Source: Desulfoferula mesophila
GTDB taxonomy: Bacteria; Desulfobacterota; Desulfarculia; Desulfarculales; Desulfarculaceae
DNA length: 64,000 bases
Assembly (NCBI RefSeq): GCF_037076455.1
Contig: NZ_AP028679.1
Span: 2,557,501-2,621,500, forward strand
Reading direction: 5' to 3'
Part shown: in pieces, positions 32,712-57,319 of the stretch
Numbering within the stretch: position 1 is the first letter of the stretch
How the letters are laid out: each line of letters starts with the position of its first letter
Notes under the pieces: generated by a model
The model's database searches: none
Told to the model about the DNA's origin: nothing
What the model saw: only the letters and a program-made list of their open reading frames with translations
Program-made: the position numbers and the translations under genes

Positions 32712-32787
32712 TCCCCGGTAGCTCAGTTGGCAGAGCAGGTGGCTGTTAACCACCGGGCCGTTGGTTCGAGTCCGACCCGGGGAGCCA
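32712..32787 (+). tRNA. tRNA-Asn (GTT)
   Basis: A complete 76-nt cloverleaf: acceptor TCCCCGG/CCGGGGA, D arm GCTC/GAGC, anticodon arm GGTGG/CCACC with loop CTGTTAA giving anticodon GTT, T arm with TTCGAGT and encoded CCA. From 32738 the 3' part is duplicated at 57267, so the 3' half is probably supplied by the integrated element. Confidence 0.97.
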
Positions 32788-32790
32788 AAA
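32738..32790 (+). repeat. attL: left copy of the 53-bp tRNA-Asn repeat
   Basis: From the anticodon stem through CCA plus AAA. It matches the copy at 57267-57319 with a single mismatch (T at 32761, C at 57290). This copy is in the functional tRNA. Confidence 0.92.
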
Positions 32791-32795
32791 ATTAC

Positions 32796-32830
32796 AAGGA
32801 GTTAGGCCTTTTGGCCTAGCTCCTTTTTTT
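32796..32830 (+). terminator. tRNA-Asn terminator (element-side copy)
   Basis: AAGGAG-TAGGCC paired with GGCCTA-CTCCTT around a TTTT loop, with one mismatched pair, then a run of seven T. It has a diverged counterpart after attR at 57325. Confidence 0.88.
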
Positions 32831-32833
32831 GGC

Positions 32834-32853
32834 GGGTAAGCAGGGGGTAAGCA
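32834..32853 (+). repeat. Paired GGGTAAGCA repeats, left end
   Basis: GGGTAAGCA at 32834 and 32845, exactly 11 bp apart. The same word at the same 11-bp spacing is at the right end of the element near the integrase, so these are candidate integrase arm-binding sites. Confidence 0.7.
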
Positions 32854-32896
32854 TCAGGAGCCATTTCGGCTGCCGGTGGATCCTCAATCGCAAGGA

Positions 32897-33559
32897 TCAA
32901 TCATCAACCGCATTTGGATGTTTTGCGGGAATTATCATGGCCTCACTGTGCAGGGCCACCATAGCCGCCGACTGTACTTGGCCCGAGTCGTGCCGCACCA
33001 CCTGCTGCAGAACCTTGGCGGAATGCCGGCCCCCAATGCAGCCTAGGGCTCGGGCTGCGGTGCAGCGCACCTGGATCGGCTGGCTGCGATCATTTATCAG
33101 ATCGGCCAAGGGCCCCACCACTTTCTCTCCACCGATTTTGCCAAGAGCGTGGGCGGCCACTCGGCGCATGGTGGGATCGGGATCGCCCAGCAGCGCGATC
33201 AGGGTGGCTGTTGCCTCGGAGCAGCGAATTTCGCCCAAGGTGTAAACCGCCACCGCGCGCACCTGGTCACTCGAAGCCCCCACCAGGGCAATCAGGGTAG
33301 CACGGTCCAGCGCGCCGACCGGAGCCATAAGCCCTTGTTGGACGGCCCGGTTACAGGTATCCAAAACCTTCTTTTGCAGGTGGCAAGGTATTGCCTTCGC
33401 ATGGTCATCTGTCGCGCTCACCCTCGCCTGGGTGGCGCTCACCGCCAAGTCCGGCGCGGGAAACGACCAAAGCAGGACCAGGCACAGCACCCCAGCCAAA
33501 AGGCCGTAGGTAATGCGGAGGGTTCCACCACTGGGGCTGCTCTGGGCGTCATTGGCCAT
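32897..33559 (-). CDS. HEAT-repeat protein with N-terminal membrane anchor
   Basis: A 220-residue protein. A single hydrophobic segment (about residues 18-38) near the N-terminus suggests a signal anchor, followed by a linker and three to four HEAT/PBS-type repeats such as RAVAVYTLGEI, MRRVAAHALGKIGG and QVRCTAARALGCIGG. Such repeats mediate protein contacts. ATG at 33559 has an AAGGAGGTG ribosome site. Its 3' end lies in the segment that also resembles the chromosome beyond attR. Function unknown. Confidence 0.82.
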   Translation of the reverse strand: MANDAQSSPSGGTLRITYGLLAGVLCLVLLWSFPAPDLAVSATQARVSATDDHAKAIPCHLQKKVLDTCNRAVQQGLMAPVGALDRATLIALVGASSDQVRAVAVYTLGEIRCSEATATLIALLGDPDPTMRRVAAHALGKIGGEKVVGPLADLINDRSQPIQVRCTAARALGCIGGRHSAKVLQQVVRHDSGQVQSAAMVALHSEAMIIPAKHPNAVDD

Positions 33560-33838: not shown

Positions 33839-36800
33839 TCAGTCGCGCTGGTCGGTGATACTCTGCCGGATGGACTCCGTCACCCACCCGGGCTCGGCGT
33901 CCATGTGTTCCTTGAGCCATCGGCGGCACTGCTGGTAGGTCTGCAAGGCCTCGCCGATGCGGCCGCTACGCTGCTGTATCAGCATCAATCGCTGATAGGA
34001 TTCCTCGCGCCAAGGAGCCGCCGCGATGAGCCGTTTGGCGGTCTCCATGGCCTGGGCCACCTGCCAAGCCTCCTCCTGTAACCGCATCAGTTCCTGTAAC
34101 AGGTCGGCGTACTCGTCGGTAAGTTTTTCCCGGGGCTCCCGGCACCATTCCAAATATTCTTCGTTGGCCAGCAAAGGGCCGGCGTAACTATCCGCCGCCC
34201 GCCCCAACAGTTCCAAAAGGCCTTCTTCGTCTCCATCGCGCCGCGCCTGGGCGGCTTGCCGGAGCAGGTCACGGAAATTTTCCACATCCAAGCGGCAACA
34301 CTCGCGGTTCAGAGATATTCGGCCCCCCTCCAATAGCACATAGGAAGAACCCAGGTCGTTGTTCAGTTCCGGTTCCAGGGCTTTGCGCAAGCGGTGCAGG
34401 GTCACGCGAAAGGTGCGCTCGGCGGATTCGGGATCGCTGTCCGGCCAGATGGCCTCCATGAGGCGCTCTTTGGGCAGCCCCCAAGGACCCAGAACCGCCA
34501 GGGCCATGAGCAGCAGCTTGGCCTGTTTGCGTCCCCAGGCGCCATTGCCCAGAACGCGTTCCCCCACCTTTACCGAATCCCCCCCCAGCACATTGATCTC
34601 CAGCAGGGGAGCGCGGTTTCTCCAGACCGAGCGCTTGCATTCCAAGGCCAAATCGACCACTCGTTGGTCAGGGTGTTTCAGAAGTTCTTCCGCCGCCCGG
34701 CGGTAGTCCGGCTCCTGCCTCTGCGCCATGATCGCCATCAATTCGCGGGCCTGGGAGACTGCGCCCATCGCGAGAGACAAAACGATAAGCTCGGCTACCT
34801 CCTGGGCCCGCAGCAGCATAAAATAGCCGTAGCCTTTCCCGCGGCGTCGGTCGGCGGCTCGCAGCAACCATCCTTTCACCTCCGGGGAGCCCAGCCCCTG
34901 GTCGTGGGCCAGCAAGGCCAAGAACAACTCGCTCTCGTGGAGCAATTGGATGGCTCCGTGGTCCGCATACAGCTGGTGGGCCCGGCGGGCAAATGGCTCC
35001 AGCTCCGAGGTCCGGCGCCCCAGGTCGCGGCCCACCATCGCCTTGACCATTAAGCTGGAGGCCAAATGCTGCACCGCCATGCAAAGATCGGTGTCCAGCT
35101 CGGTCACGGCCTGGTCTGCCATATCCCAGGCCAGCTGCGGCTCGTACCTGCGGGCGTGACTAATGGCCAAAAGCTCCTTGCTGGTGGCCCGCAGGAATGG
35201 GGTTACGGTTTCTGGGGGGATGGCACCGTATTTTGCGGCGCAGATCTTGGCTCGTTCATGGTCTCCGATCAAGGCCGACCAGAGGGTGTCATAGATGATA
35301 TGCACCGGTAGCAGGTACATTAAACCCTTGCGCGCGATCTTTTCCCCGCCGAAATCCAAGTAGCGGCGCGCCAGGTCGAGATTGCCCTGGAGTAGGTTCA
35401 GATAGCTCAAGGGGGCGAAAGCTTCCGCCGGCAACTCGCCCAACGGGGACTGCTTACTCAGGGCGATGAGCTGTCTGCCCTTGTCCTCCGCCTTTTGGAG
35501 GTCCCCCGTGAAGTTCAAGGCATCTATGTAATGGATCAGCAGCCCTAGGGTAAGCGGCGGATTGTCGAGTTCCGCGGCGATGAGCTCCGCCTGTTCGCAG
35601 GCCCACACCGCCTCGCGCGCGCTGCCCCTTACGGCATACAGCAGGGCGATGTTGCTCAACAGCCCCACCCGTTCCGCCGGGTAAAGCGCGGGCCCCAATT
35701 GGTCCAAAAAGCACTTGGCCTCCTTGACGCCGGCCTCGAGCACGCTCCAGGGAAGGGCGAGGTGATGCCCGTCCAAGGAAAGGGCCAATGACAACAGCAT
35801 TCCTCGGTCGTCCTTGCGCCGGGCGAACTCCATTTTCAACTCCGGCAGGGCGCGCGTCACATAGCCGAAATCCTTCCATAGCAAGGTGCGGCACTGGTAG
35901 TAAAGCAACCAGGGGTCCCCGGTTACCAAGGGGGCGGGGATTTTGCCGATCCAGCGCTCCAAATCGGTCAACCTGCCCTGGTCCAGCAACTCGGGGCCCA
36001 GCCGTTTGATGGCCGAGGCGGCGGCTTGGTGGTCTCCGGCCTCGTGGTAGCAGCGAAGCGCCTCCTCCCAGTATCCGCGCCCGGCCATGACCTGCCCGGC
36101 CCGCAGCATGTAATCTCTTTGCTCCGCTGGTGACAACTGCTCCCGGTAGAGCCTTTGCAAAAATTCGCTGAAAAGCTGATGCAGACGGTAGACCCGGCCG
36201 AACTCGTTGTCGAGCGACGAACTGATGAAATGATGACGCCGGCAAAGTTGATCCAATATCTCCTGGGGCTTGGACTCTCCGGTCAGTTCGGCCAAAACGC
36301 TCGGTTCCAACACCGACAGCGGGGCGCAACGCACGAGAAAATCACGCACCCTTGCCGTCTCGCTTTGAAAGAGATTGCGTGCGATGTATTGGAACACCTC
36401 GTCCTTTACTTTATTTTCCACCTCCAGTTGGAAATAATCCAATTGTCCCAGCTCGGGCATCCCCCGCAGTATTTGGCCGCACAGGATCACTCCCCCGATC
36501 CAGCCCTCGCTGAGCCGGTAAATTGCCTCCAACTGGTTTTGACCCGGGGCCTGACCGGTAAGGAGCAACAACAGGGATTCCACTTCTTGGGCGGTGCAGG
36601 CCAGATCGCGGTTGCCCAAGGCGAAGGCCCGGCGCTTGATGGTCAGCTCCGGCTGATAGGGCTGGATTTCGCGGGACAGGACGATGATCCGGTGTTCCTC
36701 AGGCAAGTTCTCGATGAGGGCGGACAGCAATTCCTGGGAGGACGCGTCTGCTGGCAGCCGATCCAGGCCGTCCAGCACCAGGCTGGTTCCCGGAGGCAGG

Positions 36801-37177
36801 TTTTCATACAGCAGGCGCGCCAGAAAAACGACCTGAGCCCGGTCCTGCACCGGCATGCGGCCTAGGCCCGCCTCGGATAGCAGGTGGTCCGGCCCGCGGC
36901 CCAAAGCTATGGACAGGCTGTGCACCAAAGACAGGAATAAGTTTTCCAGGGGAGCGTCCTCGGCGCCAACATTGAGCCAGGCAATGGGTAAGGTGTTCTT
37001 TTCGGCCCAGGAGGATATCAGAGTGGTCTTGCCCTGGGCCGCCTGGCCGGTTACAAACCAGATGTTTTTATGCTGGTTATCCTTCAGCAGGTTCAGCAAC
37101 CGCTGGCGCTGCAGGACTCTGGGCAAAGAGGGCCTGCGGTATTTGGCAATGGAGACGTAGGATTCATGCATGCTCAT
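33839..37177 (-). CDS. STAND ATPase regulator with C-terminal SARP/BTAD activator domain
   Basis: A 1112-residue regulator. The N-terminal NTPase domain has a P-loop GQAAQGKTTLISSW and a Walker B-like LVLDGLDRL, as in MalT/STAND proteins. A long helical, TPR-like middle (about 380-870) follows. The C-terminal 240 residues combine an OmpR-like winged helix (INVLGGDSVKVGE, ERTFRVTLHRLRKAL) with a bacterial transcriptional activation domain ending in the LIQQRSGRIGEALQTYQQCR type repeat. These proteins activate transcription when a ligand releases the STAND switch. ATG at 37177 is preferred; a TTG 16 codons upstream is possible. Confidence 0.88.
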   Translation of the reverse strand: MSMHESYVSIAKYRRPSLPRVLQRQRLLNLLKDNQHKNIWFVTGQAAQGKTTLISSWAEKNTLPIAWLNVGAEDAPLENLFLSLVHSLSIALGRGPDHLLSEAGLGRMPVQDRAQVVFLARLLYENLPPGTSLVLDGLDRLPADASSQELLSALIENLPEEHRIIVLSREIQPYQPELTIKRRAFALGNRDLACTAQEVESLLLLLTGQAPGQNQLEAIYRLSEGWIGGVILCGQILRGMPELGQLDYFQLEVENKVKDEVFQYIARNLFQSETARVRDFLVRCAPLSVLEPSVLAELTGESKPQEILDQLCRRHHFISSSLDNEFGRVYRLHQLFSEFLQRLYREQLSPAEQRDYMLRAGQVMAGRGYWEEALRCYHEAGDHQAAASAIKRLGPELLDQGRLTDLERWIGKIPAPLVTGDPWLLYYQCRTLLWKDFGYVTRALPELKMEFARRKDDRGMLLSLALSLDGHHLALPWSVLEAGVKEAKCFLDQLGPALYPAERVGLLSNIALLYAVRGSAREAVWACEQAELIAAELDNPPLTLGLLIHYIDALNFTGDLQKAEDKGRQLIALSKQSPLGELPAEAFAPLSYLNLLQGNLDLARRYLDFGGEKIARKGLMYLLPVHIIYDTLWSALIGDHERAKICAAKYGAIPPETVTPFLRATSKELLAISHARRYEPQLAWDMADQAVTELDTDLCMAVQHLASSLMVKAMVGRDLGRRTSELEPFARRAHQLYADHGAIQLLHESELFLALLAHDQGLGSPEVKGWLLRAADRRRGKGYGYFMLLRAQEVAELIVLSLAMGAVSQARELMAIMAQRQEPDYRRAAEELLKHPDQRVVDLALECKRSVWRNRAPLLEINVLGGDSVKVGERVLGNGAWGRKQAKLLLMALAVLGPWGLPKERLMEAIWPDSDPESAERTFRVTLHRLRKALEPELNNDLGSSYVLLEGGRISLNRECCRLDVENFRDLLRQAAQARRDGDEEGLLELLGRAADSYAGPLLANEEYLEWCREPREKLTDEYADLLQELMRLQEEAWQVAQAMETAKRLIAAAPWREESYQRLMLIQQRSGRIGEALQTYQQCRRWLKEHMDAEPGWVTESIRQSITDQRD

Positions 37178-37410
37178 CGTACTTTTTGATTCGAACAATC
37201 TGCCTTTCGGTGGCAAGAATCTCAATTATTAAAATCATAAAACAACAAACTAATGGGAAACAAGCCGCTTACTCCGGGGACCGCGCCTACCCGGGAGCGG
37301 CTACCTGAGTTAACGCTTACCGGCTTGCGGGGCCGCTGCGTGGCCTCCCAGAGCGGCTTCCCTTTTTATAGGTTCAGGGCCAGGCGAGGGCCTGAGTTTG
37401 GCGGGAGGGA

Positions 37411-37629
37411 TCAGTCCATTATCCACTCCAAGGCCAGCTGGGAGGCCCTCTCAGGGGAAATCTCCTTGCCCATGGTTGACAGCTTGGCCACCACCTCCGC
37501 GGAGGTGATAGGGGCCCTTTGGTCCCCCTCCAGCCGGAACGCCTTTAAGTCCTTGGTCAGGACAAAGGCCACGCCCTCGGATTCCACAAAGCAATCATCA
37601 TTAGGGCCGAGCTCTAGATAAAGCGGCAT
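37411..37629 (-). CDS. Small hypothetical protein
   Basis: A 72-residue protein with an AAAGGGGGG ribosome site before its ATG. It is beta-rich at the N-terminus (LYLELGPNDDCFVESEGVAFVL) and helical at the C-terminus (ISPERASQLALEWIMD). I do not recognise the family. It is 112 bp upstream-side of the next minus-strand gene, so it could be expressed alone. No cargo role can be assigned. Confidence 0.65.
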   Translation of the reverse strand: MPLYLELGPNDDCFVESEGVAFVLTKDLKAFRLEGDQRAPITSAEVVAKLSTMGKEISPERASQLALEWIMD

Positions 37630-37742: not shown

Positions 37743-38498
37743 TTATAGCGGGGGGTTCACGAGGTCTTGGAACTTATCGACCGTCTCAGAGACGAGTTTT
37801 AAGAACTGGTTGAGCGTTGGGATAATCGGCTGGCCCTTGTAGGGCATTGGGTCACCGAAAAACATGTCGAGATTAGCCTTACCCTTGTTTGTGATCTTAA
37901 GATTTTCGGACGTGTTTATTGCAAGAAGTTCTCTGCCCTCCCTGACCTCAAGGGTTCCGTTGATGAATTTTGTTCCCTTGTCCCCTTCTGCAGACACACC
38001 GCTCACCAAGGTCGTAGCCAAGGTGGGGATAATGATTTTGTGCTTGTCGTAGATGTCCAGGCTGTGGAGGGCGTACAGGGCGTCATTCCCTCCAGGGTAT
38101 GGCTTAATATCATCAATTATGAGCTGGCCGATAGTTGAGGTGGTTTCCTTTTTAAGTATTTGTTTGACGGCTTTTTCAAGGTCCCGCCTAGTCTTGCGAA
38201 ACGGGAACATTAGCCTATCGTCTGGTGTTTCCCCCGTCCTAAGAACCGAATCCCAAACAGCTAAATCCAACGCCGCCCTGAGGTTATGAATGGCATCCCC
38301 AACAACGAGGGCGGTACGCGACGGGAGTTGGGCGTTGAATTCAAGGCAGAGGCTGTTGCGTCCCGTATGGATGTTTTCCTTAACCACGAGACGATAGAAG
38401 TCAGACTGGCTTATGTGTTGCAAAATAGAGTTAAGTTCACCGATGTGGTGCTTGGCCCTATCAACCTTTAATCTGGCACCGTCAAAGTAATCGCCCAC
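37743..38498 (-). CDS. Hypothetical protein, HEPN-like motif possible
   Basis: A 251-residue soluble protein. The stretch VVGDAIHNLRAALDLAVWD resembles a motif seen in many uncharacterised mobile-element proteins and is reminiscent of HEPN-type RxxxxH arrangements, although the order is not canonical. The remainder is mixed alpha/beta with no catalytic signature I recognise. Lower GC than the core genome around it, in keeping with transfer. A defence role is possible but unsupported. Confidence 0.7.
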   Translation of the reverse strand: MGDYFDGARLKVDRAKHHIGELNSILQHISQSDFYRLVVKENIHTGRNSLCLEFNAQLPSRTALVVGDAIHNLRAALDLAVWDSVLRTGETPDDRLMFPFRKTRRDLEKAVKQILKKETTSTIGQLIIDDIKPYPGGNDALYALHSLDIYDKHKIIIPTLATTLVSGVSAEGDKGTKFINGTLEVREGRELLAINTSENLKITNKGKANLDMFFGDPMPYKGQPIIPTLNQFLKLVSETVDKFQDLVNPPL

Positions 38499-38872: not shown

Positions 38873-39097
38873 ATGGCAGGCTTTTCCAATTATCCCATCC
38901 CACCCGCGTTGTTAACCTCCCCCCAAGCCTCCGATTACTGCGGCTTTTCGCACCGCACGTTTGAGAACTGGCGGCTCAGAGGCGGTGGCCCGCCTTTTTG
39001 TAAACTCGGCGGAGCTGTTCGGTATCGGCTGGCCGACCTCGACCGCTGGATCGAAGACAACCTCCGCGAGTCCACCTCCTCCGACGGCGAGAACTAG
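38873..39097 (+). CDS. AlpA/excisionase-type helix-turn-helix protein
   Basis: A 74-residue MerR-like HTH protein (HTH_17 type): SPQASDYCGFSHRTFENWRL followed by FCKLGGAVRYRLADLDRWIEDN, the conserved wing and second helix of AlpA and phage excisionases. A good ribosome site (AAGGAGATTAGGT) precedes it. It starts the rightward replication gene run and is the best candidate recombination directionality factor or integrase regulator for the element. Confidence 0.85.
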   Translation: MAGFSNYPIPPALLTSPQASDYCGFSHRTFENWRLRGGGPPFCKLGGAVRYRLADLDRWIEDNLRESTSSDGEN

Positions 39098-39099: not shown

Positions 39100-39564
39100 A
39101 TGGGTTGGTCTGACCTACTACCCGCGCTGGTCACAGGCGGCACAGCCCTGCTTGGCGGCTTGGCGAGCGGAGATTCACTAACTGGCAGTCCACCGCAACC
39201 GGGCAAGAAGAGCGTGCAGCCCTCCACAGCCGAGGGTCAGCAACTATTGGCCTCTTTGCAGAACGACATCTTGCGCGCCAAGCCCATGAACCTGTCCGTG
39301 AAGGGGGTGAACATCCCCATCCTGGACCCGTTCATGAAGGCCAAGGCCCGCACGGCAAAGAATCTGATGGCGGGCGAAGTTGACGGGACGCCCGGAGACG
39401 GAGGGCTGCTTGGCCGCCTCGCATGGCCGATTGGCGCCGCGGCCAACCTGTTGGGCGACGTGGACAGTTCGATGATTGATTTGGGCGACTGGTCCAACGA
39501 TGAGTCTGGCGCCTACGATCCTACCGGATACGATTGGACCGACCTTATCTGGAAGGGCCTGTAA
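39100..39564 (+). CDS. Hypothetical element protein
   Basis: A 154-residue protein with a Gly/Ala-rich hydrophobic N-terminal segment (about residues 7-24: LPALVTGGTALLGGLA) that could be membrane-active, then a polar region rich in Asp. It starts 3 bp after the AlpA stop, and its own stop overlaps the helicase start (TAATG), so it belongs to the replication operon. The N-terminus is reminiscent of small phage virion proteins, but I cannot assign a family. Confidence 0.7.
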   Translation: MGWSDLLPALVTGGTALLGGLASGDSLTGSPPQPGKKSVQPSTAEGQQLLASLQNDILRAKPMNLSVKGVNIPILDPFMKAKARTAKNLMAGEVDGTPGDGGLLGRLAWPIGAAANLLGDVDSSMIDLGDWSNDESGAYDPTGYDWTDLIWKGL

Positions 39565-40802
39565 TGGCTGGTGGGCCGGTAACAGCGCTTCGGGGTGATC
39601 CCGGCCCAGGGAGCGCCGAAGACCACGCCTGCATGAAGGCTGCGGTTGATGCCCGCGTCGAGGAGGAGCGGGCGAATTATGGGCCGCCGCCCAACCCGTT
39701 TGAGTGCAAGCCCTGTCCCGGCGAGTGGTTCCGTGAGGATCCACCACCCCGTAAGTACCTATTTGACGAGGTCGTGCCTGAGGGCTTGGTGGCTGGCCTT
39801 GGTGGTTCGGGGGGCGGGGGCAAGACCTTTATCGCTACGCAAATGGCGATATCCGCCGCGACGGGCAGAACCTTCGGCCCCTTTCAGCCGGCCGGCGCAC
39901 GCCCTGCAATGATAGTGCTGCTTGAGGACGTGGAGTCGGAAGCGCGGCGCCGCCTACATGACATCGGTAAGGTGTGGGGTCTGAGCCCACAACACATAGA
40001 GGCGCTAGAAACGAACCTGTATGTTGTGTCCATGGTCGGCAGGATGCGCCCCCTAGTTGAGCTTGACGCTGCCGGCAACCCCACACTCACCGAGACCTAC
40101 TATCAGCTTTTAGAGGCGGTCATCAAGTTGGGGATACGTTTTCTGCTCGTCGACCCCAAATCGCGAACATCACGGCTTGATGAAAACCGTGCAGAGCATG
40201 CAGTAGCCCACTCCCAGATGTGGGAGCAAATGGTTGCGGCTGTGCCGGGCTTGGTGGTGTTGTTTACGCACCACAGTCCTAAAGGGTTATCAGACCAAGG
40301 GCGCATGAGCGCCGACACAGTTTTTCGGGGGTCGTCAGGCCTTGTTGACTCAATCAGGTGGGGTGCCGGGCTGCGCGTGATGACTCGGGCTGACGCCGAA
40401 ATGTACGGAGTACAAAACCATCGAGACTACGCCGAGCTAGACCTGGTCAAGGTCAACTATGCTCCGCAGTGGCCTGGCCCGGTCTACTTCGAACGTGGCC
40501 CCGGCGGGGTTTTGATTCCCGCAAACCTACAGCGAGACCGCGCGGTGCTAACCACAGAGGCGTTCGCCAGGGCCCTGGCCGAGGACGGCGGCGAGTACAG
40601 CCGGCGCGAGCTAAGCAGGTCGCCTGGGGCTGGTATCAGGGGCAATCTCAAGGACTGGTTGCCCGGCTGGAAAGCCTCCCACCTCGACCGGACGATTGAT
40701 ACCGCGTTGCGCCAGGGCCTTGTGGAAGAGGTCCAGATATTGGCCGGGCCGAAGTCCACACCCAAATTGGTATTACGGCCGGTGACGGAGCCCAGCGCAT
40801 GA
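39564..40802 (+). CDS. RepA-like RecA-fold replicative helicase/ATPase
   Basis: A 412-residue RecA-fold ATPase of the RSF1010 RepA/AAA_25 type. Walker A is GLGGSGGGGKTFIA, the aromatic/acidic LLEDVESEARRR follows, Walker B is RFLLVDPKSR, and VVLFTHHSPKG is the sensor-like strand with paired His typical of this family. Such helicases unwind plasmid or satellite origins. ATG at 39564 overlaps the upstream stop. It is followed by an AT-rich repeat region and the primase gene, a layout typical of an autonomous replication module. Confidence 0.87.
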   Translation: MAGGPVTALRGDPGPGSAEDHACMKAAVDARVEEERANYGPPPNPFECKPCPGEWFREDPPPRKYLFDEVVPEGLVAGLGGSGGGGKTFIATQMAISAATGRTFGPFQPAGARPAMIVLLEDVESEARRRLHDIGKVWGLSPQHIEALETNLYVVSMVGRMRPLVELDAAGNPTLTETYYQLLEAVIKLGIRFLLVDPKSRTSRLDENRAEHAVAHSQMWEQMVAAVPGLVVLFTHHSPKGLSDQGRMSADTVFRGSSGLVDSIRWGAGLRVMTRADAEMYGVQNHRDYAELDLVKVNYAPQWPGPVYFERGPGGVLIPANLQRDRAVLTTEAFARALAEDGGEYSRRELSRSPGAGIRGNLKDWLPGWKASHLDRTIDTALRQGLVEEVQILAGPKSTPKLVLRPVTEPSA

Positions 40803-41086: not shown

Positions 41087-42448
41087 ATGACCACCCTACC
41101 TGACCTGTACCGAGCCGATGGCTACGTGGCCAAGCGGGTGTCCAGCACCGGCGGCGGTGAGCATGCCGGGCCCTGCCCGCACTGCGGTGGCCGGGACCGC
41201 TTCCACCTGTGGCCGGAGACTGGGCGCTGGTGGTGCAGGCAGTGCAACAAGTCGGGGGACCTCCCTGGCTACCTGATGGAGTTTCACGGCATGGCCTATC
41301 CTGCGGCCATGGAACGCCTTGGACTTGACCTGCCCAAGCGGCCCCTACGGGCCGTGGCCAAGTCCCAGCCCACGCCCTGGGCCCCGAAGGCCGCCACGCA
41401 GCCCCTGTCCCTCTGGGCTGATGAAGCTGAGGACCTAGTCACGCGGGCCCACGCCCAACTCTTGGGCGATGCCAAGGCAATTTCGTATCTGAGGGGCCGT
41501 GGTTTGACCCTGGAGAGCATAAAAGCCTTCCGCCTGGGTCTGCTCCTCAAGAATTCGTACCGTGAACGTAGCGCCTGGGGTTTGCCTGAGGTGCTCCATG
41601 AAGACGGGCCGCGCAAAGGCAAGCCCAAGCTGTTGTGGATTCCGGCCGGTATCGTGATCCCCACCTTCGGTCAGGACAACGAGGTGGTGGGCATCAAGAT
41701 TCGGCGTTGGGATGGCGAACCCCGTTATTACCGTCTGCCGGGATCGGCTAACCGCTGTCTGGTGGCGGGCTCCGGCCCCGTGGTGGTTGTGGTTGAGAGC
41801 GAGCTTGATGCTCTGCTGTTGGCCCAGGTGGCCGGTGATATTGTGACCGCCGTGGCCCTGGGGAGCGCTCAAGCGCGGCCGGATGCCGAAACCCACGACC
41901 GGCTCATGGCGGCGGCCACGATCCTCCAAGCCCTCGACTATGACGAGGCCGGGGCCAAGGCAGCCTGGGGCTGGTGTCGCGACATCTACCAGCAAGCCGT
42001 GCGCTGGCCGGTGCCCGAGGGCAAGGACCCAACAGAGGCCCTCCAGGCTGACGTTGACCTTCGCTTGTGGGTCAAGGCGGGCATCGACAGTGCGGCCCCC
42101 AAGAAGGTTTCCCTCGCCCCGCAGCCGCAGGGCTCTGTCGATGAACGATCCCACGGCGATGCGGGTGAGGCTGGAGACAACCAGGAGCAGACCGCGGCTC
42201 CTGAATCTAACACCATCGCGTTTGCATGGGGCCACCACGAAAAGCCAAAGATAGACAACCTGGTGTTGTGCCGAACCTGCGAGACCTTTAAGCACGGATC
42301 AGGTGATACCCGCAACGCTTTTGGCCTTTGCCGGGGCTCGCCCTGGGATGGCCATCCGGGCCAGTGGCCGGGGGCCGAGCACCCTTGTCCAAACTTCAAA
42401 CTCACAGGAGATTTTAATGACAACACCGAAAGACAACTTGCGAGTTAA
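41087..42448 (+). CDS. DNA primase with CHC2-type zinc finger and Toprim domain
   Basis: A 453-residue primase of phage or plasmid type. The zinc-binding N-terminus has CPHCGGRDRFHLW and WWCRQCNKSGD. The Toprim region has VVVVESELDALLLAQ with the catalytic Glu and a later ALDYDEAGAKAAWGW with the acidic pair. The C-terminus contains a further Cys-rich segment (VLCRTCETFKHG). ATG at 41087 has a GGAGG site; the longer open frame upstream covers the AT-rich repeat region and is not protein-like. It primes replication with the RepA-like helicase. Confidence 0.9.
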   Translation: MTTLPDLYRADGYVAKRVSSTGGGEHAGPCPHCGGRDRFHLWPETGRWWCRQCNKSGDLPGYLMEFHGMAYPAAMERLGLDLPKRPLRAVAKSQPTPWAPKAATQPLSLWADEAEDLVTRAHAQLLGDAKAISYLRGRGLTLESIKAFRLGLLLKNSYRERSAWGLPEVLHEDGPRKGKPKLLWIPAGIVIPTFGQDNEVVGIKIRRWDGEPRYYRLPGSANRCLVAGSGPVVVVVESELDALLLAQVAGDIVTAVALGSAQARPDAETHDRLMAAATILQALDYDEAGAKAAWGWCRDIYQQAVRWPVPEGKDPTEALQADVDLRLWVKAGIDSAAPKKVSLAPQPQGSVDERSHGDAGEAGDNQEQTAAPESNTIAFAWGHHEKPKIDNLVLCRTCETFKHGSGDTRNAFGLCRGSPWDGHPGQWPGAEHPCPNFKLTGDFNDNTERQLAS

Positions 42449-47663: not shown

Positions 47664-47959
47664 TGGCCAAGAAAACCAAGCCTGGCCAAAGCCAGCTGCG
47701 GTTCCTGCGGCTGTTCTTGGCCGGTGACGAGCCCAACTCAGCCCTGGCCAGGAAGAACCTGGAGCGCATCGTCAAACAAAACTCCATCGATCCCTCCTTG
47801 GTTGAAGTGGTCGACGTATATGAGGACCACCGCACCGCCCTGGACAACAAGGTATTGCTCACGCCCACCCTGTTGATTGGGCTGCCCGGCAGCGTGACCA
47901 GGGTGGTGGGCAATCTGCAGGACGTGGACAGCTTGATCCACCAGATTGAAGCCGCCTAG
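47663..47959 (+). CDS. kaiB: KaiB-family thioredoxin-like clock protein
   Basis: A 98-residue KaiB homologue. LRFLRLFLAGDEPNSALARKN is the thioredoxin-like opening with SxxA, VEVVDVYEDH the second strand, and LLTPTLLIGLPGSVTRVVGN the cis-proline TPTL strand and GxxxRVxG loop of KaiB. The ATG overlaps the kaiC stop (TGATG). In cyanobacteria KaiB binds the CI ring of KaiC in a phosphorylation-dependent manner; the same contact is inferred here. The start was placed after 35 non-homologous upstream codons. Confidence 0.94.
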   Translation: MAKKTKPGQSQLRFLRLFLAGDEPNSALARKNLERIVKQNSIDPSLVEVVDVYEDHRTALDNKVLLTPTLLIGLPGSVTRVVGNLQDVDSLIHQIEAA

Positions 47960-50900
47960 ATGCCTCAGAACAAAAAGCCGACCTACGAACAGCTCGAGCA
48001 GCGACAGGAAGAGCTGGAGCAGCGCCTGGCCGAGGCAGAGCAGATGCTGGACGCCCTACGCCGTGGCGAGGTGGACGCGGTGCTGGCCCAGGAACAGCCC
48101 ATCGTCCTGTGGCCCAGGGAGTTGGAGCGAAAGCTTAAGGAAAGCGAGACGGCCCTGGTCGAAGCCCAGACCACAGCCAAGATCGGGAGCTGGCAATACG
48201 AAGTAGCCCAGGACAAGCCCATCTGGTCGCAAGAGATGTTTCGCATCTTCGACCGCGACCCCGCCCAAGGCGAACCCCCTTGGTGGGAGCATAAGGATTT
48301 TTTCCATCCCGAGGACTGGGAGCGTCTCGACCAGGCGGTGCGCGACGCTATTGAGAAGGGGCGGCTCTATCGCGAGGAGTTTCGTGTCATCCGCCGCGAC
48401 GGGAGTGTCATCTGGGCCGAGACCATAGGAAAGGCACATCGAAATGAAGCCGGTAAAGTCTTCAGCCTATCTGGAACAGTTCAAGACATAAATGAGCGCA
48501 AAAAAGCCGAACTGGCTTTGTCCGAAAACGAAAAGAAATACCGACGCCTGACAGACAATTCCCCAGACATGATATACCGGATGTCTTTGCCTGATGGTAA
48601 ATATGATTTTGTCAGCAGGGCAGCAGAGACTCTTACTGGATATCCACCAGACACATGGTATGCAAACCCGCTCCTGATCAAGGAGATAATCCCACCGGAC
48701 TGGCATTCCTATTTAAATTTACAATGGAGCCGCCTGCAGAAGGGCGAAGTCCCACCAACTTATGAGTATCAACTCTTGCATAAAAACGGGGAAGTCAGGT
48801 GGATAAACCAGCGCAACGTTGCGGTCCGTGATGAACAAGGCCAACTGATCGCCATTGAAGGTATCCTCAACGATATCACCCAGCGCAAGGAGGCCGAACT
48901 GGCCCTGGCCGATAGTGAAGAGAAATTCCGCACCCTTTATGCCAGCATTCGCGATGCCATCCTCATTGCCGGCACAGACCGTAATATCCTCGATTGCAAC
49001 ATCGCGTTCACGGATGTTTTTGGTTACACCCTGGATGAAATCAGGGGACAAGCAACCTCCGTTTTGTATGAGAGTCAGGAAGAATTCGCCCGTATGGGCC
49101 GGGAGATTCAAGAGCACTTAAAAGATCGCACCTTTGTTGCAACCATTAATTACCGCAGAAAAGATGGAAAAGTCTTCCCAGGGGAGACCAGCGTTTATTA
49201 TCAGACCAACGACCGAGGCGAAGTGGTGGGGTTGGTCGGTATAATCCGGGACATTTCGGCAAAGGTGGCCGCCGAAAAAGAGTTGCGTGAGAGCAGGGAC
49301 CTACTTCACCGGACCGAGGCAATTGCCAAGATCGGCGGCTGGGAGTTGGATGCAAAAACCCTCAGGCAGAAATGGACCGATGGCATTTACCGCATTCACG
49401 AGGTGGACCCGGACTTTGATCCCAATTTGGAAGAGGCAATCGAGTTTTACGCACCCGAGGCCCGCCCGGTCATACGACATGCGGTGGAGCAGGCACTTGA
49501 GAAAGGCGAGCCTTATAATCTGGTGTTGCCTTTCATAACCGCGAAAGGCAGGCATTTGTGGGTCCGTGCCCAGGGAGAGGCCAAGTGGGAAAACGGTGCC
49601 ATAGTGCGCATTGGTGGCACCTTCCAGGACATCACAGCCCAAAAATCAGCCCGAAACCAATTGCGCCTAGAGCGCGATCTTTCTAAGAAGTACCTGGACA
49701 CCGCTGGGGTGATTCTCTTGGCCTTGGACAAGCAGGGCCGCATCGAACTGATCAACCGCAAAGGCTGCCAGCTGCTGGGTTGTCGGGTCGAGGAAGCAGT
49801 GGGCCAGGATTGGTTTACCAGCTACATCCCCGAAGATTCGCGCCAGCGAATTCGGGCCGTGCACGAAAATATCATGGCAGGCATGGTGGAGTTGCACACC
49901 TACGAGGAAAATACGGTGATCAGCGACTCCGGAGAGCAAAGGCTCATTCGCTGGTTCAATACGGTCATAAAGGACTCCGAGAGCAACATCACCGGCACCC
50001 TGAGTTCCGGCGAGGACATCACCGAATACAAAGCCGCCCAGGAAGCCATCAACCGGCTGGCGGCCATTGTGGAATCCTCTCAAGACGCCATCACCGGCAA
50101 GGACCTGCAAGGCATCATCACCTCCTGGAACGATGCTGCCGAGCGCATATACGGCTATACCGCCGAGGAGGCCATAGGCCAGCATATTTCCCTGATCGTG
50201 CCCGAGGACAAGCGTGGCGAAGTGGAGCAGGTGCTCACCGCCGTGGGCCGGGGAGAGGCCATCAGAATCCACGAAACCGTGCGGCGGCGCAAGGACGGCA
50301 GCCTGGTGGATGTGTCGCTATCGGTTTCGCCGGTGCGCGATGACCAGGAACAACTGGTCGGCGCTGCCACCATCGCCCACGAGATCACCGAGCTCAAGTG
50401 GGCCCGCCGGGAAAAGGAGAAACTGGAGAGCCAACTGCGGCAGGCTCAGAAGATGGAGGCCATCGGCACCCTGGCTGGCGGCATAGCCCACGACTTCAAC
50501 AACATCCTAGCGGCGATCATGGGCTACAGCGAGTTGGCCCAGGACAGCCTGCCAGCCGATTCCGAGGCGGCGGAAAACATCAAGACGGTCATTGATTCCG
50601 CCCAGCGGGCCAAGGAACTGACCTGCCAAATACTCTCCTTCAGCCGCCAGACCGAACATGAGCAGGTTGCCTTGGACTTGGAGCCCATCATCAAGGAAAT
50701 CTTGAAAATGCTCCGTGCCACCATACCCACCACCATCGAGATCAAGCAAAACATTCCCGTTGGCACCGGCAAAATCATGGCCGACCCAGTGCAGATACAC
50801 CAGATCCTCCTGAACCTGTGCAACAACGCTGCCCAGGCCATGGAAGAAACGGGTGGGGTATTGAGCGTGGATTTGGATGTGGTTGATATCGACGAGTTGA

Positions 50901-51589
50901 CCGCAGATGGATATGTGGGCCTGGCTCCCGGTAGGTACCAGCGGCTCAGTGTGGGCGACACCGGTGTGGGCATGAAAAGGGAAGTGCAGGAGCGCATTTT
51001 CGAGCCCTTCTACACCACCAAGGATGTGGGCAAGGGGACCGGAATGGGCCTGTCGGTGGTCCACGGCATAGTCAATGACTACGGCGGGGCCATCACGGTC
51101 TACAGCGAACCAGGGGAAGGTTCCACCTTCCATGTTTACCTGCCGCTGGCTGAGGCCAAGCCAGACAAAGAACAGGCATCCTCGTCGCCACCAGAACTGC
51201 GCCGGGGAAGCGAAAGCATACTATTCGTCGATGATGAGCCTGCTCTGGTGGATATCGGCAAGCAAACCTTGTCCCGTCTTGGCTACAAAGTGCAGGGTTT
51301 CACCTCGGCCCAAGAAGCATTGGAAGCCTTTCAATCCGCGCCCGACGAGTTTGACCTGTTAATTACCGACTTCACCATGTCCAAGATGAATGGTGTTCAA
51401 TTGGCCAGCGAAATCCTAGCCATCAAACCGGACCTGCCTATAATCATGTGCACGGGTTTCTCTGAGCGGCTCTCCTCTGTTTCATCACAAGAAATAGGAG
51501 TGACCCGCCTGGCCCTGAAGCCGCTCATGCCCAGAGACATCGCGCGCATCATAAGGGAGGTCTTAGATAAAGACCAAACACACTCTTGA
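47960..51589 (+). CDS. Hybrid sensor histidine kinase with six PAS domains and a receiver domain
   Basis: A 1209-residue soluble kinase starting directly after the kaiB stop. Order: an N-terminal coiled coil (about 1-60), six PAS/PAC units (about 70-180, 183-310, 312-440, 441-565, 574-695, 699-815), a HisKA helix with H844 in [14 protein letters not shown], an HATPase domain with [11 protein letters not shown], and a C-terminal receiver (about 1087-1205) with DDE at 1091-1093 and phosphoacceptor D1137. No membrane segments, so it senses cytoplasmic signals and/or the KaiBC complex. It may act like SasA, though it has no KaiB-like sensor domain. Confidence 0.93.
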
Positions 51590-51790
51590 GCAGATGACCC
51601 GGCAGCGGGCATACCAAATGACCTGTGGTTACGAGGATTGCAACGATGCTGATTACGATAGTTGGTTTGCGCGGCGCCCTGCCTCCCCGCCCCGTTCCCT
51701 CTCGCATTTGCCAAAGGTAAGCTAGTGCCTCCCGACAAGAACAACTCGAAAGAGCACGCTGCACGCGAAAAAAGCGAAAAGGGCCAGCAT

Positions 51791-54360
51791 ATGCATTTCG
51801 AGCAGGAGATAATCTACAGTAAAAAAGCCTTGGCCGTGGACGATGATGCGGCCATCCTGGACATCTTGAGCCAGGCCGCCCGGGGGCGCGTTGATTTGAC
51901 CACCGCCTCGAGCGCCAAGGAAGGCATAGCTCTGCTGGAGGAGCAGGGTCCCTTCGGGGTGGTGATGAGCGATCTCAGGATGCCTGATGTAGACGGCATA
52001 CAGTTCTTGGACCTGGTAAGGAAGCGATGGCCCCACACGGTGCGCATACTGTTCACCGGCTTCGCCGATTTGCAGGCGGCCACCAAAGCCATCAACACCT
52101 CCCAGGTTTTCAGGCTGCTCACCAAACCCGCCCACAACAAGGAAATTCTGGCGGCCCTGTCCGACGGGCTGAAGCAACACCGGATGATAGTGGCCGATGA
52201 GGCCCATCTGCTGGAGCGGGAACGCCAGTTCCGCACCGCTCTGCTGGACCTGCCCCTGCCGGCCATGATCCACGCCGAGGACGGCCAATTGGTTCTGATG
52301 AACCGAGCCTGGCGAGAGATTTCAGGCTGGGCCACCGAGGACATTCCGGACTTTAACGCCTGGCGCCAAAAAGCCCTTGACCGGGATGCGGAGGAAGTTC
52401 AAAAAGAGTTTTCGGAGATATACGCAATCCAAGGCAGAGTGGCCCACGGCGAGCAGACTGTTATCACCAAGCAGGGCGCGCGCCTGGTTTGGGATTTCAG
52501 CTCCGCCTCCCTGGGCGAGATGCCCGACGGCCGCCGCGCCATCATCTCCATCGCCTCGGACGTCACCCAGCGCCGGGCCATGGAGGAGTCCCTGTCCCGA
52601 GCGGGGCAGGTGTTCGACAACGCCACCAACGGTATCCTAGTCACCGATTACGACGGGTCATCCTGGACGTGAACCCCGCCATGTGCCGGATAAGCGGCTA
52701 TAGCCGGGATGAACTCATCGGGCAAAATCCCCGCCTGTTCCGCTCCGGCCGCCACGACGAAGGCTTTTACCACCGCATGTGGCAGGAGATCAAAGGCCCC
52801 GGCTCCTGGCGCGGCGAGATATGGAACCGCCGCAAAAACGGCGAGATATTCCCCGGCCTGCTCACCATCTCTACGGTGGAGGACGGCTCCGGCAAGCGAT
52901 ACGGCTTCGTGGCCAGCACCTCCGACCTCAGCCCCCTGCACCAGGCCCAGGAGCGCACTGAGTACCTAGCCCGACACGACGCCCTGACCAGCCTACCCAA
53001 CCGCGACGCCTTGCAGGACCTGCTGCAAGAGGCCATGGCCCAGGCCGACCAAAGCGGAGAGCAGGTGGTGGTGTCCTATCTGGACCTGGACCAGTTCAAG
53101 TTGGTCAACGAGTCGCTCGGGTACCAGGCGGGGGACCGGACCCTGCAGGAAGTCGCCCGGCGCCTGCGGCGGGGCCTGGAGCAGGACAACAGCCTGGTGC
53201 GCTGGGGCGGCGACCACTTCGTTGCGGTTTCGGTCACCCAGCGGGGCAGCGCGGATGCCGAAGACAAGGCGCGGCGCCTGCTGGAGAGCGTGAATCTTCC
53301 CCTGGATGTGGACGGCCATCGGCTGTTTTTGACCATCAGCGCCGGCCTGAGCCTCTACCCCGGCGACGCCCAAACTCCCGAAGAGCTTGTCCAACACGCC
53401 GACACCGCCATGCACTCGGCCAAGCAGCTGGGCCGCAACCACTACAAAATGTTCTATGAGACCATGAACCAGGAGGTTGTCGAGCGGCTCGCCCTGGAGA
53501 GCGAGCTGCGTACCGCCCTGGAGCAAAAGCAGTTCATTCTGCACTACCAGCCCCAGGTGGAGCTGGCCACCGGCCGGGTGCGGGGCCTTGAGGCCCTTGT
53601 GCGCTGGCGGCACACCCAACGGGGCCTGCTGATGCCCGACCAATTCATTTCCGTAGCCGAAGATGCCGATCTCATCGCGCCCTTGGGCGTCCAAGTGCTG
53701 GAAATGGCCTGCCGACAGATTCGCCTCTGGATGGAGCGGGGGTTGCCGGTGGAACGGGTGGCGGTGAATCTTTCGGCCCACCAGTTATGGGAAGACGACC
53801 TGGCCGAAACCGTCACTGAGATAATGGAAAAGCACGGCTGTCCGCCTCAGCGCTTGGAACTGGAGGTCACCGAAAGCGTGATTATGAGTTCGGTGGAAAA
53901 GGGCCGCGAGGCGCTGGCCAAGCTTCACCGGCTGGGGGTGGAGGTGTCCATAGACGACTTCGGCACCGGCTACAGCTCGCTTTACTATCTCAAAAAGCTG
54001 CCCTTCAGCGTGTTGAAAATCGACAAATCCTTCGTTGATGACCTGCCCGGAGACGCCGACAGCGTCAACATCGTGGCCAGCATCGCCACCCTGGCCCACG
54101 GCATGGGCAAGCAGGTGGTGGTGGAAGGGGTCGAGACCCTCCCCCAGCTGGAGTCGGTGGCCTCCTGTGGCTGCGAGATAGTGCAGGGCTTCTACTTTTC
54201 GCGCCCCCTGCCCCCGGAGGAGATAGAAAGGATCCTCAGCTGCGATCGGCGCCCCTTTGCCAACCGGTTGCCTGGCGCCCGCTGGGTCGGCACTAAATTA
54301 AAACCTCTTTGCAAAATGAAGAGCTTGCCGTTTTTGTTTTTCCCAGGAGTCGCTCGATGA
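51791..54360 (+). pseudogene. Response regulator REC-PAS-PAS-GGDEF-EAL protein, frameshifted in this sequence
   Basis: One gene split at about 52656-52660. The first part has a receiver (DDD near residue 17, phosphoacceptor D61 in SDLRMPDVDG), one PAS, and the start of a second PAS, NATNGILVTDYDG. The next frame resumes precisely with VILDVNPAMCRISGYS, then GGDEF and EAL domains. One base lost in the GGG run of GACGGGTC explains it. The GGDEF signature is GGDHF, so the cyclase is probably inactive, while EALVRW, DDFGTGYSSL and VVEGVET make the EAL phosphodiesterase look active. ATG at 51791; GTG at 51725 is an alternative. Confidence 0.85.
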
Positions 54361-55709
54361 TACGCCTTACCAAAAAAGTCTTCTTCGACCTGGCCATCTG
54401 GATGATCGGGTTGGGCCTGGCCATGGGCGTGGTCTTTCCATTCTTCATGGTGCTCATGGGGGTGCCCGCCCAGATGGTGCTCACCCCTTGGTTTTTCGCC
54501 GCCTGCATGGGTGCTGGCTTCGTGGTCGGAACGGCTAACATAGGCTTGGCTCGCGGCGTGGTGGGGAAGCGGCTTCGCCTGCTGGCCGAACGTATGCGGG
54601 TGGTTGAGGGCAACTTGAATCATATGGCAGCCGGCGACGGCATGGAGGACTGCTCCCCTGAGGACTGCTACATCGCCGTAGACTCCAGCGATGAGATCGG
54701 CGAGAGCGCCCAGGCCTTCAACAATCTGGTGGGCGCCCTGGCCGAGGCCCACCAGAGCGAGGGAGCGGTGAGCGAGTTCAGTCGGCTGCTGGCCAGCCAA
54801 ATGGAGTTGGAGGCATTGACCGAACAGGCCCTGCGGCAGCTCATGGGTCACACCCGGGCCAGCGCCGGGGCCCTGTTGGTGGAAACAGAGGGTGAACTCA
54901 AGATGGCGGCCTCCCATGGCCTGCGGGGCCCTGCCGATTTGGGACAGAGCGACCATGTGCGCGCTGCCATGCGAACCGGCCAGCTACAGCGGGTACTGTT
55001 GCCCCCGGAGTTGACCGTGGAGGGAGTGCTGGCCGACTTCAAGCCCCGCGAGGTGCTGGTGGAGCCGGTGATGTACAAATCGGTGCCCATTGGAGTCATC
55101 GTATTGGCCACGGGTGAGGCCTTCGACGAAAAGGGCCTGCACCGCCTGGAACTGCTGCGCCCAGGGCTGGCTCTGGCCCTAAACAACGGCTTGGCCCACG
55201 AACGTTTGCAGCGCCTGGCCGCCTTGGATCCCCTCACCGGAATCTATAATCGCCGCTTCGGCCTGGCCCGCTTGCAGGAGGAGTTCGGCCGGGCGGTGCG
55301 CGACAGCTCCCCCCTGGGGGTGGTTATGTTCGACCTGGACCATTTCAAGAGCGTCAACGACACGTACGGCCACCTGGTGGGCGACCGTGTGTTGGTCCAC
55401 ATGGCCAAGTTGGCCCGCTCGGTCATGCGCGAGGGCGACGTGTTGGTCCGCTACGGCGGCGAGGAGTTTCTGGCCATCCTGCCCGCCGCTTCCCGGGAAG
55501 ACTGCCGCGCGGTGGGTGAACGCCTGCGCCGCTTGGTACAGGAGAGTGCGGTGCGCGACGGGGAGCAGGAAATACGCATTACGGTGAGCGCCGGGGTGGC
55601 AGCCACCCCGGAACTAACCGTGGACAGCCCCAACGACCTGGTGAGTCAGGCCGACCAAGCGTTGTATGAAGCCAAGGACATGGGCCGCAACCAAGTCAGG
55701 ATCGCCTAA
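54357..55709 (+). CDS. Membrane diguanylate cyclase with HAMP-like and GAF-like regions
   Basis: A 450-residue protein. Two membrane segments (about 9-35 and 42-65) precede a HAMP-like helix, a GAF-like region (about 135-280) and a GGDEF domain with intact GGEEF at 367-371 and the RxxD inhibitory site (REGD) five residues upstream, so it should make c-di-GMP with product inhibition. ATG at 54357 overlaps the stop of the frameshifted regulator (ATGA) and has AGGAG. It is the output gene at the end of the Kai operon. Confidence 0.92.
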   Translation: MIRLTKKVFFDLAIWMIGLGLAMGVVFPFFMVLMGVPAQMVLTPWFFAACMGAGFVVGTANIGLARGVVGKRLRLLAERMRVVEGNLNHMAAGDGMEDCSPEDCYIAVDSSDEIGESAQAFNNLVGALAEAHQSEGAVSEFSRLLASQMELEALTEQALRQLMGHTRASAGALLVETEGELKMAASHGLRGPADLGQSDHVRAAMRTGQLQRVLLPPELTVEGVLADFKPREVLVEPVMYKSVPIGVIVLATGEAFDEKGLHRLELLRPGLALALNNGLAHERLQRLAALDPLTGIYNRRFGLARLQEEFGRAVRDSSPLGVVMFDLDHFKSVNDTYGHLVGDRVLVHMAKLARSVMREGDVLVRYGGEEFLAILPAASREDCRAVGERLRRLVQESAVRDGEQEIRITVSAGVAATPELTVDSPNDLVSQADQALYEAKDMGRNQVRIA

Positions 55710-55871
55710 TCCTTTGACGCTAGTAAAACCTCATGCGATTTTTACCTGTTCGGTCTTGATAAAACTTTTCGGCTACTACTTGTAGTTGCGGCGTTGCTCA
55801 TTTATTGATTAGAGGAAACGCAAGCTATTCTGGTGGCCATCCTTTCACACACTTCTATAGATTGAACGTTT

Positions 55872-57095
55872 TCATTTAACTTTTGATCGTCTTTGACGCT
55901 TGGTAAGGGGCAACACCTTCTTTTCTGGCTTCCGGGCCATGGCCCCGGCAATTCTCTCTCCGATCTGATTTGCGGCCTGCTTAAGGGGATCAGCGGGCAG
56001 GTGGCTATAACGCATGGTCGTCTGGGCCTGGGTGTGCCCCAGCAGCTTTCCTATGGTGGGATAGCTCATGCCAACCCCGGCCCCGACGCTGGCGAACGAG
56101 TGTCGCAGATCGTGCAGCCGCACATCATCCAGCCCTGCCCTCTCCCGTATCCGCCGCCAGGGGCGCTGTAGGTTGACCAGCGGCCTCATGGGCCGGGCGC
56201 CTGGGCAGACAAATTGATTGCCGGCCTGGCGTGGGGTGCTTTCAAGTAGGTCCAGGGCGACTTGCCCCAACGGAACAAATCGTTGTCCGGTTTTGCTGTC
56301 CCTCAGGTTAAGGCACCCGCGCTCCCAATCAACGTCGTCCCATCTAAGGTTCAGGACCTCAGAGAGCCGGCAGCCGGTAAAAATCAACAGTCGCACGGCG
56401 GTGATCACGGCGGGCAGTTCCGAGTTCTCTTGTTCAACCTCAGCCAAGGCTTTTCCCAGCCGGGCCCATTCGTCCTCGGACAAATAGCGCTGCCGCTTTT
56501 CCTCCTTGTACTTCTGGATATGCCTGGCGGGGTTGGTGCCATCAGGCCGGAGTCCCCAAGCCTCGGCCAAGTTGAACATCTTGCGCACTACCTCGAGGAC
56601 TCGGTTGGCCTGGTATGACTTTTCTCGCAGGCTGTGGTGCAGTTTCGCTATCTGCTCGCGGGAAACCTCATCGACGTTGTAGCGACCCAGGGCGGGCAGG
56701 ATGTAGTGATCAACGAGGTAACGATCTTTACGTATACTCTCCGACTTTTTTTTGACCTCGCTATGCTCGGCCATGTAACGAGAAGCCAGTTGTGCGACCG
56801 TAGGAGCGCCCCTGGCCGCAATACGCTCCTCGGCGGGGTCGTTGCCCCGGTCAACCTCCGATAGCTTCTCTCGGGCGGTCTTACGGGCCTGATCAAGCGT
56901 CATACGACCGTATTTCCCCAGGGTGACACGCCGGCTCCGGCCCTGAGCGTTGTAATACTGGATGCAAAACGATTTTACGCTAGAGGGTTTTACCCTCACC
57001 CCCAGACCCACCTGTTCTGTGTCCCAAAAAACCAGGTCTGATCCTTCGGCCTTGACGCCATCAAGCAGTCTCTTGGTTAATTTCACCTTTGGCAT
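55872..57095 (-). CDS. Tyrosine integrase (P4/prophage type)
   Basis: A 407-residue integrase. The N-terminal DUF4102-like domain (LTKRLLDGVKAEG, LVFWDTEQVGLGVRVKPS) is the arm-binding part of P4-type integrases. The catalytic residues are R243 (TGCRLSEV), H328 and R331 (HDLRHSFAS), H354 (LLGHTQ) and Y363 (MRYSHL). ATG at 57095 has a GGGAGG site. Its gene lies at the attR end, and its own leader overlaps one GGGTAAGCA repeat, so it may autoregulate. Confidence 0.95.
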   Translation of the reverse strand: MPKVKLTKRLLDGVKAEGSDLVFWDTEQVGLGVRVKPSSVKSFCIQYYNAQGRSRRVTLGKYGRMTLDQARKTAREKLSEVDRGNDPAEERIAARGAPTVAQLASRYMAEHSEVKKKSESIRKDRYLVDHYILPALGRYNVDEVSREQIAKLHHSLREKSYQANRVLEVVRKMFNLAEAWGLRPDGTNPARHIQKYKEEKRQRYLSEDEWARLGKALAEVEQENSELPAVITAVRLLIFTGCRLSEVLNLRWDDVDWERGCLNLRDSKTGQRFVPLGQVALDLLESTPRQAGNQFVCPGARPMRPLVNLQRPWRRIRERAGLDDVRLHDLRHSFASVGAGVGMSYPTIGKLLGHTQAQTTMRYSHLPADPLKQAANQIGERIAGAMARKPEKKVLPLTKRQRRSKVK

Positions 57096-57106
57096 GGCAT
57101 CCTCCC

Positions 57107-57163
57107 GGGTAAGCAGAGCCCCCAAATTGCCCGGGTAAGCATTGGGTAAGCACCGGGTAAGTA
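57107..57163 (+). repeat. GGGTAAGCA repeats at the integrase end
   Basis: GGGTAAGCA at 57107, 57133 and 57144, and GGGTAAGTA at 57155, the last three at exact 11-bp spacing. The same pattern is at the left end. Candidate integrase arm-type sites; the copy at 57107 lies in the integrase leader. Confidence 0.75.
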
Positions 57164-57266
57164 ATCCACGGGTAGAATAGCGTAAAGCACGGTATCATTT
57201 CAAGCAGTAACTATGCTATTTAACGAAGTGTGTCGTTTTGGAGAGTAAACGAGCGGAGCTTAAACT

Positions 57267-57319
57267 GGTGGCTGTTAACCACCGGGCCGCTGGTTCGAGT
57301 CCGACCCGGGGAGCCAAAA
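57267..57319 (+). repeat. attR: displaced 3' part of tRNA-Asn
   Basis: 53 bp identical to 32738-32790 except one base. It lacks the acceptor 5' strand and D arm, so it is not a tRNA gene. Presumably the original 3' end pushed away by integration. Confidence 0.92.

Follow-up and report, generated by a model that had tools for sequence, protein, structure and literature searches.

A 24.5-kb integrative element in the tRNA-Asn gene of Desulfoferula mesophila carries KaiBC and cyclic di-GMP genes

What kind of DNA lies in the tRNA-Asn gene of Desulfoferula mesophila, and how would it pass from one cell to another? The stretch analysed here (the window) comprises 64,000 nt, positions 2,557,501-2,621,500 of the single 4.48-Mb contig of this genome (NZ_AP028679.1, assembly GCF_037076455.1; hereafter G000). 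A first-pass annotation of the same letters had proposed a self-replicating element integrated in tRNA-Asn, either a phage satellite or a mobilisable island. Our results confirm that a 24,529-bp integrative element is present within the tRNA-Asn gene, at window positions 32738-57266. The proposal of an integrase-driven element with a replication module stood; neither of the two identities offered for it was established, as no terminase and no relaxase were matched.

The window contains one tRNA gene, tRNA-Asn(GTT), located by ARAGORN at 32712-32787 on the plus strand. The 53-bp direct repeat with one mismatch that had been claimed at this gene is present: the left core repeat (attL, 32738-32790, plus strand) and the right core repeat (attR, 57267-57319, plus strand; called att2 when it is considered as the attL of an older element) are identical at 52 of 53 positions, and the 24,529 bp are the distance from the start of one to the start of the other. 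The repeat consists of the final 50 nt of tRNA-Asn plus 3 nt, the core spanning the gene from the anticodon stem to the 3' end, and the element appears to supply the 3' two thirds of the target gene. Joining the two flanks in silico produced a complete tRNA-Asn with one mismatch in the T-stem, which is not present in the left copy. As expected for an element in a tRNA gene, the tRNA 3' end is restored on one side, the displaced fragment lies on the other, and a tyrosine integrase gene adjoins one end.

This integrase, correctly placed at the right end by the first-pass annotation, is encoded at 55872-57125 on the minus strand (PF00589, PF13356) and has arm-binding, core-binding and catalytic domains. 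Residues R253, K278, H338, R341, H364 and Y373, those expected to be catalytic in this family, are invariant in the integrase alignment (eight relatives). Moreover, the window holds five exact copies of the sequence GGGTAAGCA and no more, every one of them on the plus strand and at one of the two ends of the element; for that strand of the window, a first-order random model predicts about 0.1 copies. Two of them, 11 bp apart, start at 32834 and 32845 (32834-32853), and the other three start at 57107, 57133 and 57144, with GGGTAAGTA at 57155 completing the right arm (57107-57163, plus strand; found by exact matching and also by TRF). These copies are putative arm-type integrase sites. The left pair lies 46 and 57 nt past the tRNA in G000, in the congener G006 and at a tRNA-Phe locus of G000, and 44 and 55 nt past it in G002; it is absent behind the tRNA-Asn of genomes G001, G004 and G005 and behind the attR of G006.

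The tRNA is followed by a terminator of the element type, a hairpin with a T run at 32796-32830 (plus strand), which was compared across genomes. The terminators behind att2, behind the attR of G006 and behind the tRNA genes of G001 and G005 are mutually 74-83% identical, and those behind the left ends are less like this set (61-74% in most comparisons). The simplest reading seems to be that the tRNA 3' end and the terminator both come with the element.

In support of the boundaries, the congener G006 has a 20,373-bp sister element in tRNA-Asn (C2, about 316.8-337.3 kb), bounded by a perfect 52-nt repeat, with an integrase 86% identical to ours and arm sites at matching spacings. Both elements have the tRNA-Asn target, an AlpA-sized gene, a DUF5681 gene and small proteins; they differ in cargo, and in G006 a Toprim-DUF3987 replication protein replaces the RepA helicase and the primase. 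The element has its replication module in common with the G006 element and with one in G015. In G001, G004 and G005, where the arm sites are missing, other genes come after the tRNA-Asn, so these sites are free of this element family rather than bare.

Two further loci of G000 show related features. At 1,384,966-1,417,411 of contig C1 lies a third related element (L062, L058) with an integrase 74% identical, a near-perfect 30-nt end repeat, arm-like GGGAAGCA sites and genes in common with the G006 element. The tRNA-Phe locus (L060, C1 3,322,001-3,341,000), which has the same left-arm spacing, carries a DUF3987 gene as well as an integrase with 52% identity.

The right flank of the element needs a separate explanation. 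Past the 53-nt repeat, the two ends remain 80-86% similar for another ~120 nt. Plain duplication was rejected as the cause, since the right copy contains arm sites that have decayed but kept their register: TGGCAAGCA at offset 48 and GGGGATGCA at offset 59 (57365-57384, plus strand), outside the main element. As judged from these remnants, the right flank is not plain chromosome: it begins with the left end of an older sister element, now decayed. A third tRNA 3' end (att3), in a more decayed state, is found at genome positions 2,651,985-2,652,056, followed by a GGDEF gene at 2,652,118. The orthologous GGDEF gene of G007 is found about 1.2 kb past tRNA-Asn, with a HEAT gene and the remains of a left arm in between, and one further flank gene there is 95% identical to its G000 counterpart. 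Since the right flank of G007 matches G000 from 2,652,118 on, about 61.8 kb separate the tRNA of G000 from the ancestral flank, which we place near genome position 2,652,056, some 37 kb beyond the element. This 61.8-kb array consists of the element and ~37 kb of older, IS (insertion sequence)-rich material, in which no integrase of this element's family was found.

The queG gene (57483-58604) adjoins att2 and was considered as proof that native chromosome borders it. We rejected this: G001 and G006 have queG at other places, and the right flank of G007 has its match from 2,652,118 onwards. Near att3, a chimeric frame (L063, 6022-6783) ends in 61 residues 88% identical to the queG tail; it is preceded by an apparent AMP-ligase gene fragment, judged by eye.

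What would this element do in its host? About 9.8 kb of it is a cargo of kaiC-kaiB, hybrid-kinase and cyclic di-GMP genes, all on the plus strand, which the first-pass annotation had not described, as it had not described the arm-type sites, the sister elements, the older element on the right or the similarity past the repeat. The first gene encodes a KaiC with a coiled-coil tail (45903-47663; PRK09302 above its curated cut-off). Its closest PDB match is 8DBA, the wild-type KaiC of Rhodobacter sphaeroides (PMC10076222), aligned over residues 18-552 with the tail included, and a Ser-Thr pair stands at the position of the 8DBA phosphoserine pair. The adjacent gene (47663-47959) encodes a KaiB-like protein (PF07689, on a longer frame; PDB KaiB at 1e-10). 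A tailed KaiC with a phosphosite pair and KaiB next to it, as present here, is one mark of a KaiBC hourglass system; a timed phosphorylation cycle would be the other. A multi-PAS hybrid histidine kinase with a receiver domain (47960-51589, Pfam), a receiver-PAS protein (51725-52672, Pfam), a PAS-GGDEF-EAL protein (52669-54360, Pfam and NCBIfam) and a GGDEF protein (54357-55709, Pfam) follow.

Another kaiC-kaiB-kinase set lies at 1.09 Mb of the genome; its KaiC is 67% identical, and GGDEF-EAL and GGDEF genes adjoin it. This divergent locus (L098 and the end of L097; C1 ~1,089,300-1,099,700) has RR-PAS-GGDEF-EAL and GGDEF genes, and an integrase gene and an IS21-type element lie about 12 kb from it. 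The KaiC of the element shares 86% identity with the G001 KaiC and 81% with the G005 KaiC; the kaiC loci of both these genomes lie at contig ends. The chromosomal genes nearby show the reverse order, with G005 the more similar and G001 the less, which weakly suggests horizontal movement. There is precedent for KaiBC genes on mobile DNA, on an integrative mobilisable element (IME) of Mesorhizobium (PMC9973854), and kaiC is present on plasmids of Cereibacter and others.

The AlpA-like protein, the RepA-like helicase and the primase named by the first-pass annotation were all recovered by family matching, on the plus strand: an AlpA/excisionase-like HTH_17 protein (38873-39097; PF12728 at 2e-11, TIGR01764 weak), a RepA-type AAA_25 helicase (39633-40802; PF13481, about 30% identical to plasmid 'helicase RepA family' proteins) and a primase with Zn-ribbon and Toprim domains (41087-42448; PF08273, PF13155, PHROG primases). 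With them, also on the plus strand, are a conserved small protein of the replication module (39214-39564, 56% identical in the G006 element), a protein of 104 aa (42659-42973, 37% identical in the G006 element), a DUF5681 protein (42973-43440; PF18932 at 4e-13) and a gene call of 86 aa (43437-43697). This gene content suggests autonomous replication. Single-sequence scans of the genome and viral contigs gave no close relatives of the RepA helicase, and neither the primase nor KaiC had a match among phage records. On the minus strand are a HEAT-repeat protein (32897-33559, Pfam HEAT_2), a relative of which lies behind tRNA-Asn in G007, a MalT/SARP-like regulator of 1112 aa with AAA_16 and BTAD domains (33839-37177; Pfam, NCBIfam), two uncharacterised gene calls of 72 aa (37411-37629) and 251 aa (37743-38498, no family match) and an IS110-family transposase (44216-45250, Pfam), which is one of four or more copies that are identical across the genome. 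As defence cargo, weak HEAT-repeat matches were the sole result.

The DUF5681 gene provides a link to phages, and not a mechanism. Relatives of it occur in G003, G006, G015 and viral contigs; those of the viral contigs are 58-60% identical and lie near primase-type genes (L110) or ahead of packaging genes (L112). In both of these IMG/VR contigs the gene comes after an MmeI-type restriction-modification gene, and the L112 copy precedes tail-completion, head-completion, TerS and TerL genes. A DUF5681 protein was also detected in Salmonella phage virions (PMC8954984). The idea that it is the small terminase of the element found no support: its AlphaFold model is weak (mean pLDDT 69), with no PDB match at E ≤ 0.001, and since L112 has a separate Terminase_4 TerS, DUF5681 is not needed in that role there. 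Two other loci of G000 carry phage genes. One is an HK97-type prophage (L310, C1 ~4,107,700 to beyond 4,119,000) with terminase, portal, protease, major head and minor tail genes, a possible helper. The other (L309, C1 ~1,736,177-1,744,056) is 8 kb long and encodes an AlpA-like HTH_17 protein, a DnaB-like helicase, a terminase large subunit, an HK97-type major head protein, a gp10-like protein and an integrase; no tail genes were seen in it, and it is a candidate capsid-forming satellite.

Taken together, we consider it likely that this is a non-conjugative integrative element with a lambda-type tyrosine integrase that binds core and arm sites. The integrase, with AlpA as excision factor or activator, would recombine attL and attR into a circle, which RepA and the primase would copy; the circle would re-enter tRNA-Asn, rebuilding the tRNA and its terminator, and travel between cells would depend on a helper. 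In the host, the cargo is probably an hourglass-type KaiBC timer feeding the hybrid kinase and the cyclic di-GMP enzymes. Several points weigh against this reading. The circle, its excision and its replication are predictions from the sequence, no iterons or replication origin were seen in the element, and KaiB was recognised at modest significance only. The IS110 insertion may have disturbed the element, and it could be immobile now, because it has no transfer gene of any kind.

How, then, would it move, and is it an element at all? A coincidental second tRNA remnant, which the first-pass annotation had named as a possible refutation, or a local duplication in place of an att site is extremely improbable. 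The similarity past the repeat would favour it, yet the left arm of the older element accounts for that similarity, and the arm sites, the integrase and the G006 sister element with the same ends contradict it. Since the joined flanks restore tRNA-Asn, the five arm-type sites are confined to the ends and the layout recurs in another species, chance is excluded. The same annotation would have been refuted by relatives having the same genes with no empty site; we found a homologue with different cargo in the corresponding site of the congener, and the tRNA-Asn genes of G001, G004 and G005 stand without arm sites. Another alternative, that a formerly mobile island is now fixed, with the IS110 insertion and a loss of transfer functions, draws on the IS110 copy inside the element and on neighbouring material that is IS-rich and decayed. 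We think it unlikely: the integrase is intact, the arm sites are perfect and the repeat nearly so, whereas the older neighbours have decayed. The element is probably still functional.

Either a phage or a conjugative helper may move the element between cells. As the first-pass annotation had claimed, family matching of the called genes recovered no conjugation or virion genes: no relaxase, type IV secretion or other mating-pair formation gene, as an integrative and conjugative element would have, and no terminase, portal, capsid or other virion gene, as a prophage would have. Satellites such as the phage-inducible chromosomal islands (PICIs) have TerS or the cos/pac site of the helper in many cases, not all, and about one third of the genome size of the helper. 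That this is a true satellite, induced and packaged by a helper phage as PICIs are, is possible, though in our view less likely than not. It agrees with the absence of phage structural and lytic genes beside an integrase, an AlpA-type regulator and primase-replication genes, as in Gram-negative PICIs (PMC6092414), with the phage associations of DUF5681, and with an HK97-type prophage that could act as helper. However, no terminase was identified, the DUF5681 relative in L112 has a TerS of its own beside it, no DUF5681 relative exists elsewhere in the genome, and 24.5 kb exceeds the usual satellite size. An IME has an integrase and an oriT, with or without a relaxase (PMC11389934); in this reading, a conjugative helper would move the element through an undetected oriT. 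The integrase would suit an IME, the RepA-type helicase resembles that of mobilisable plasmids, and the Mesorhizobium IME sets a precedent for the cargo; against this, no relaxase or mobilisation protein was matched, and we regard this alternative as rather unlikely. AlpA, the primase and the phage-associated DUF5681 lean towards a phage, and we class the locus as an integrative element, not as a satellite.

The element is real and sharply bounded; it belongs to a known kind, and its cargo is unusual. With both arms legible, a sister element in the same site of another species and decayed older copies alongside, the locus shows directly how elements integrate at a tRNA hotspot, turn over and replace its terminator. 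It is also a further case of a KaiBC timekeeping set on mobile DNA, a matter relevant to the spread of such timers in non-photosynthetic bacteria. A bolder idea, which we give little credence, is that of an undescribed satellite-like family sharing its attP anatomy: a tRNA 3' end, its own terminator, a pair of arm sites spaced by 11 bp, a replication module with DUF5681, exchangeable sensory cargo, the integrase and four arm sites. The present member would then spread a KaiBC timer and a cyclic di-GMP circuit between strains, possibly timing its own activity.

Among known systems, the cargo is closest to the KaiBC hourglass of Rhodobacter (Cereibacter) sphaeroides (PMC10076222), which also has a tailed KaiC, a KaiB and two hydroxyl residues at the phosphosite. 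The pair is Ser-Thr here and Ser-Ser there, and the set of the element is linked to a multi-PAS hybrid kinase and cyclic di-GMP enzymes. As occurs with IMEMsp.CA2 of Mesorhizobium (PMC9973854), an integrative element carries KaiBC genes; IMEMsp.CA2 has a traACD mobilisation locus, whereas none was found in ours. The Gram-negative PICIs (PMC6092414) resemble it in int, AlpA, primase, the lack of virion genes and an exclusive att site. It is larger than these islands, and no TerS was found in it. Tycheposons are tRNA-integrated elements with a tyrosine recombinase, replication genes and adaptive cargo. In these features our element would be like them. They are themselves listed as a family of satellites (PMC11389934).

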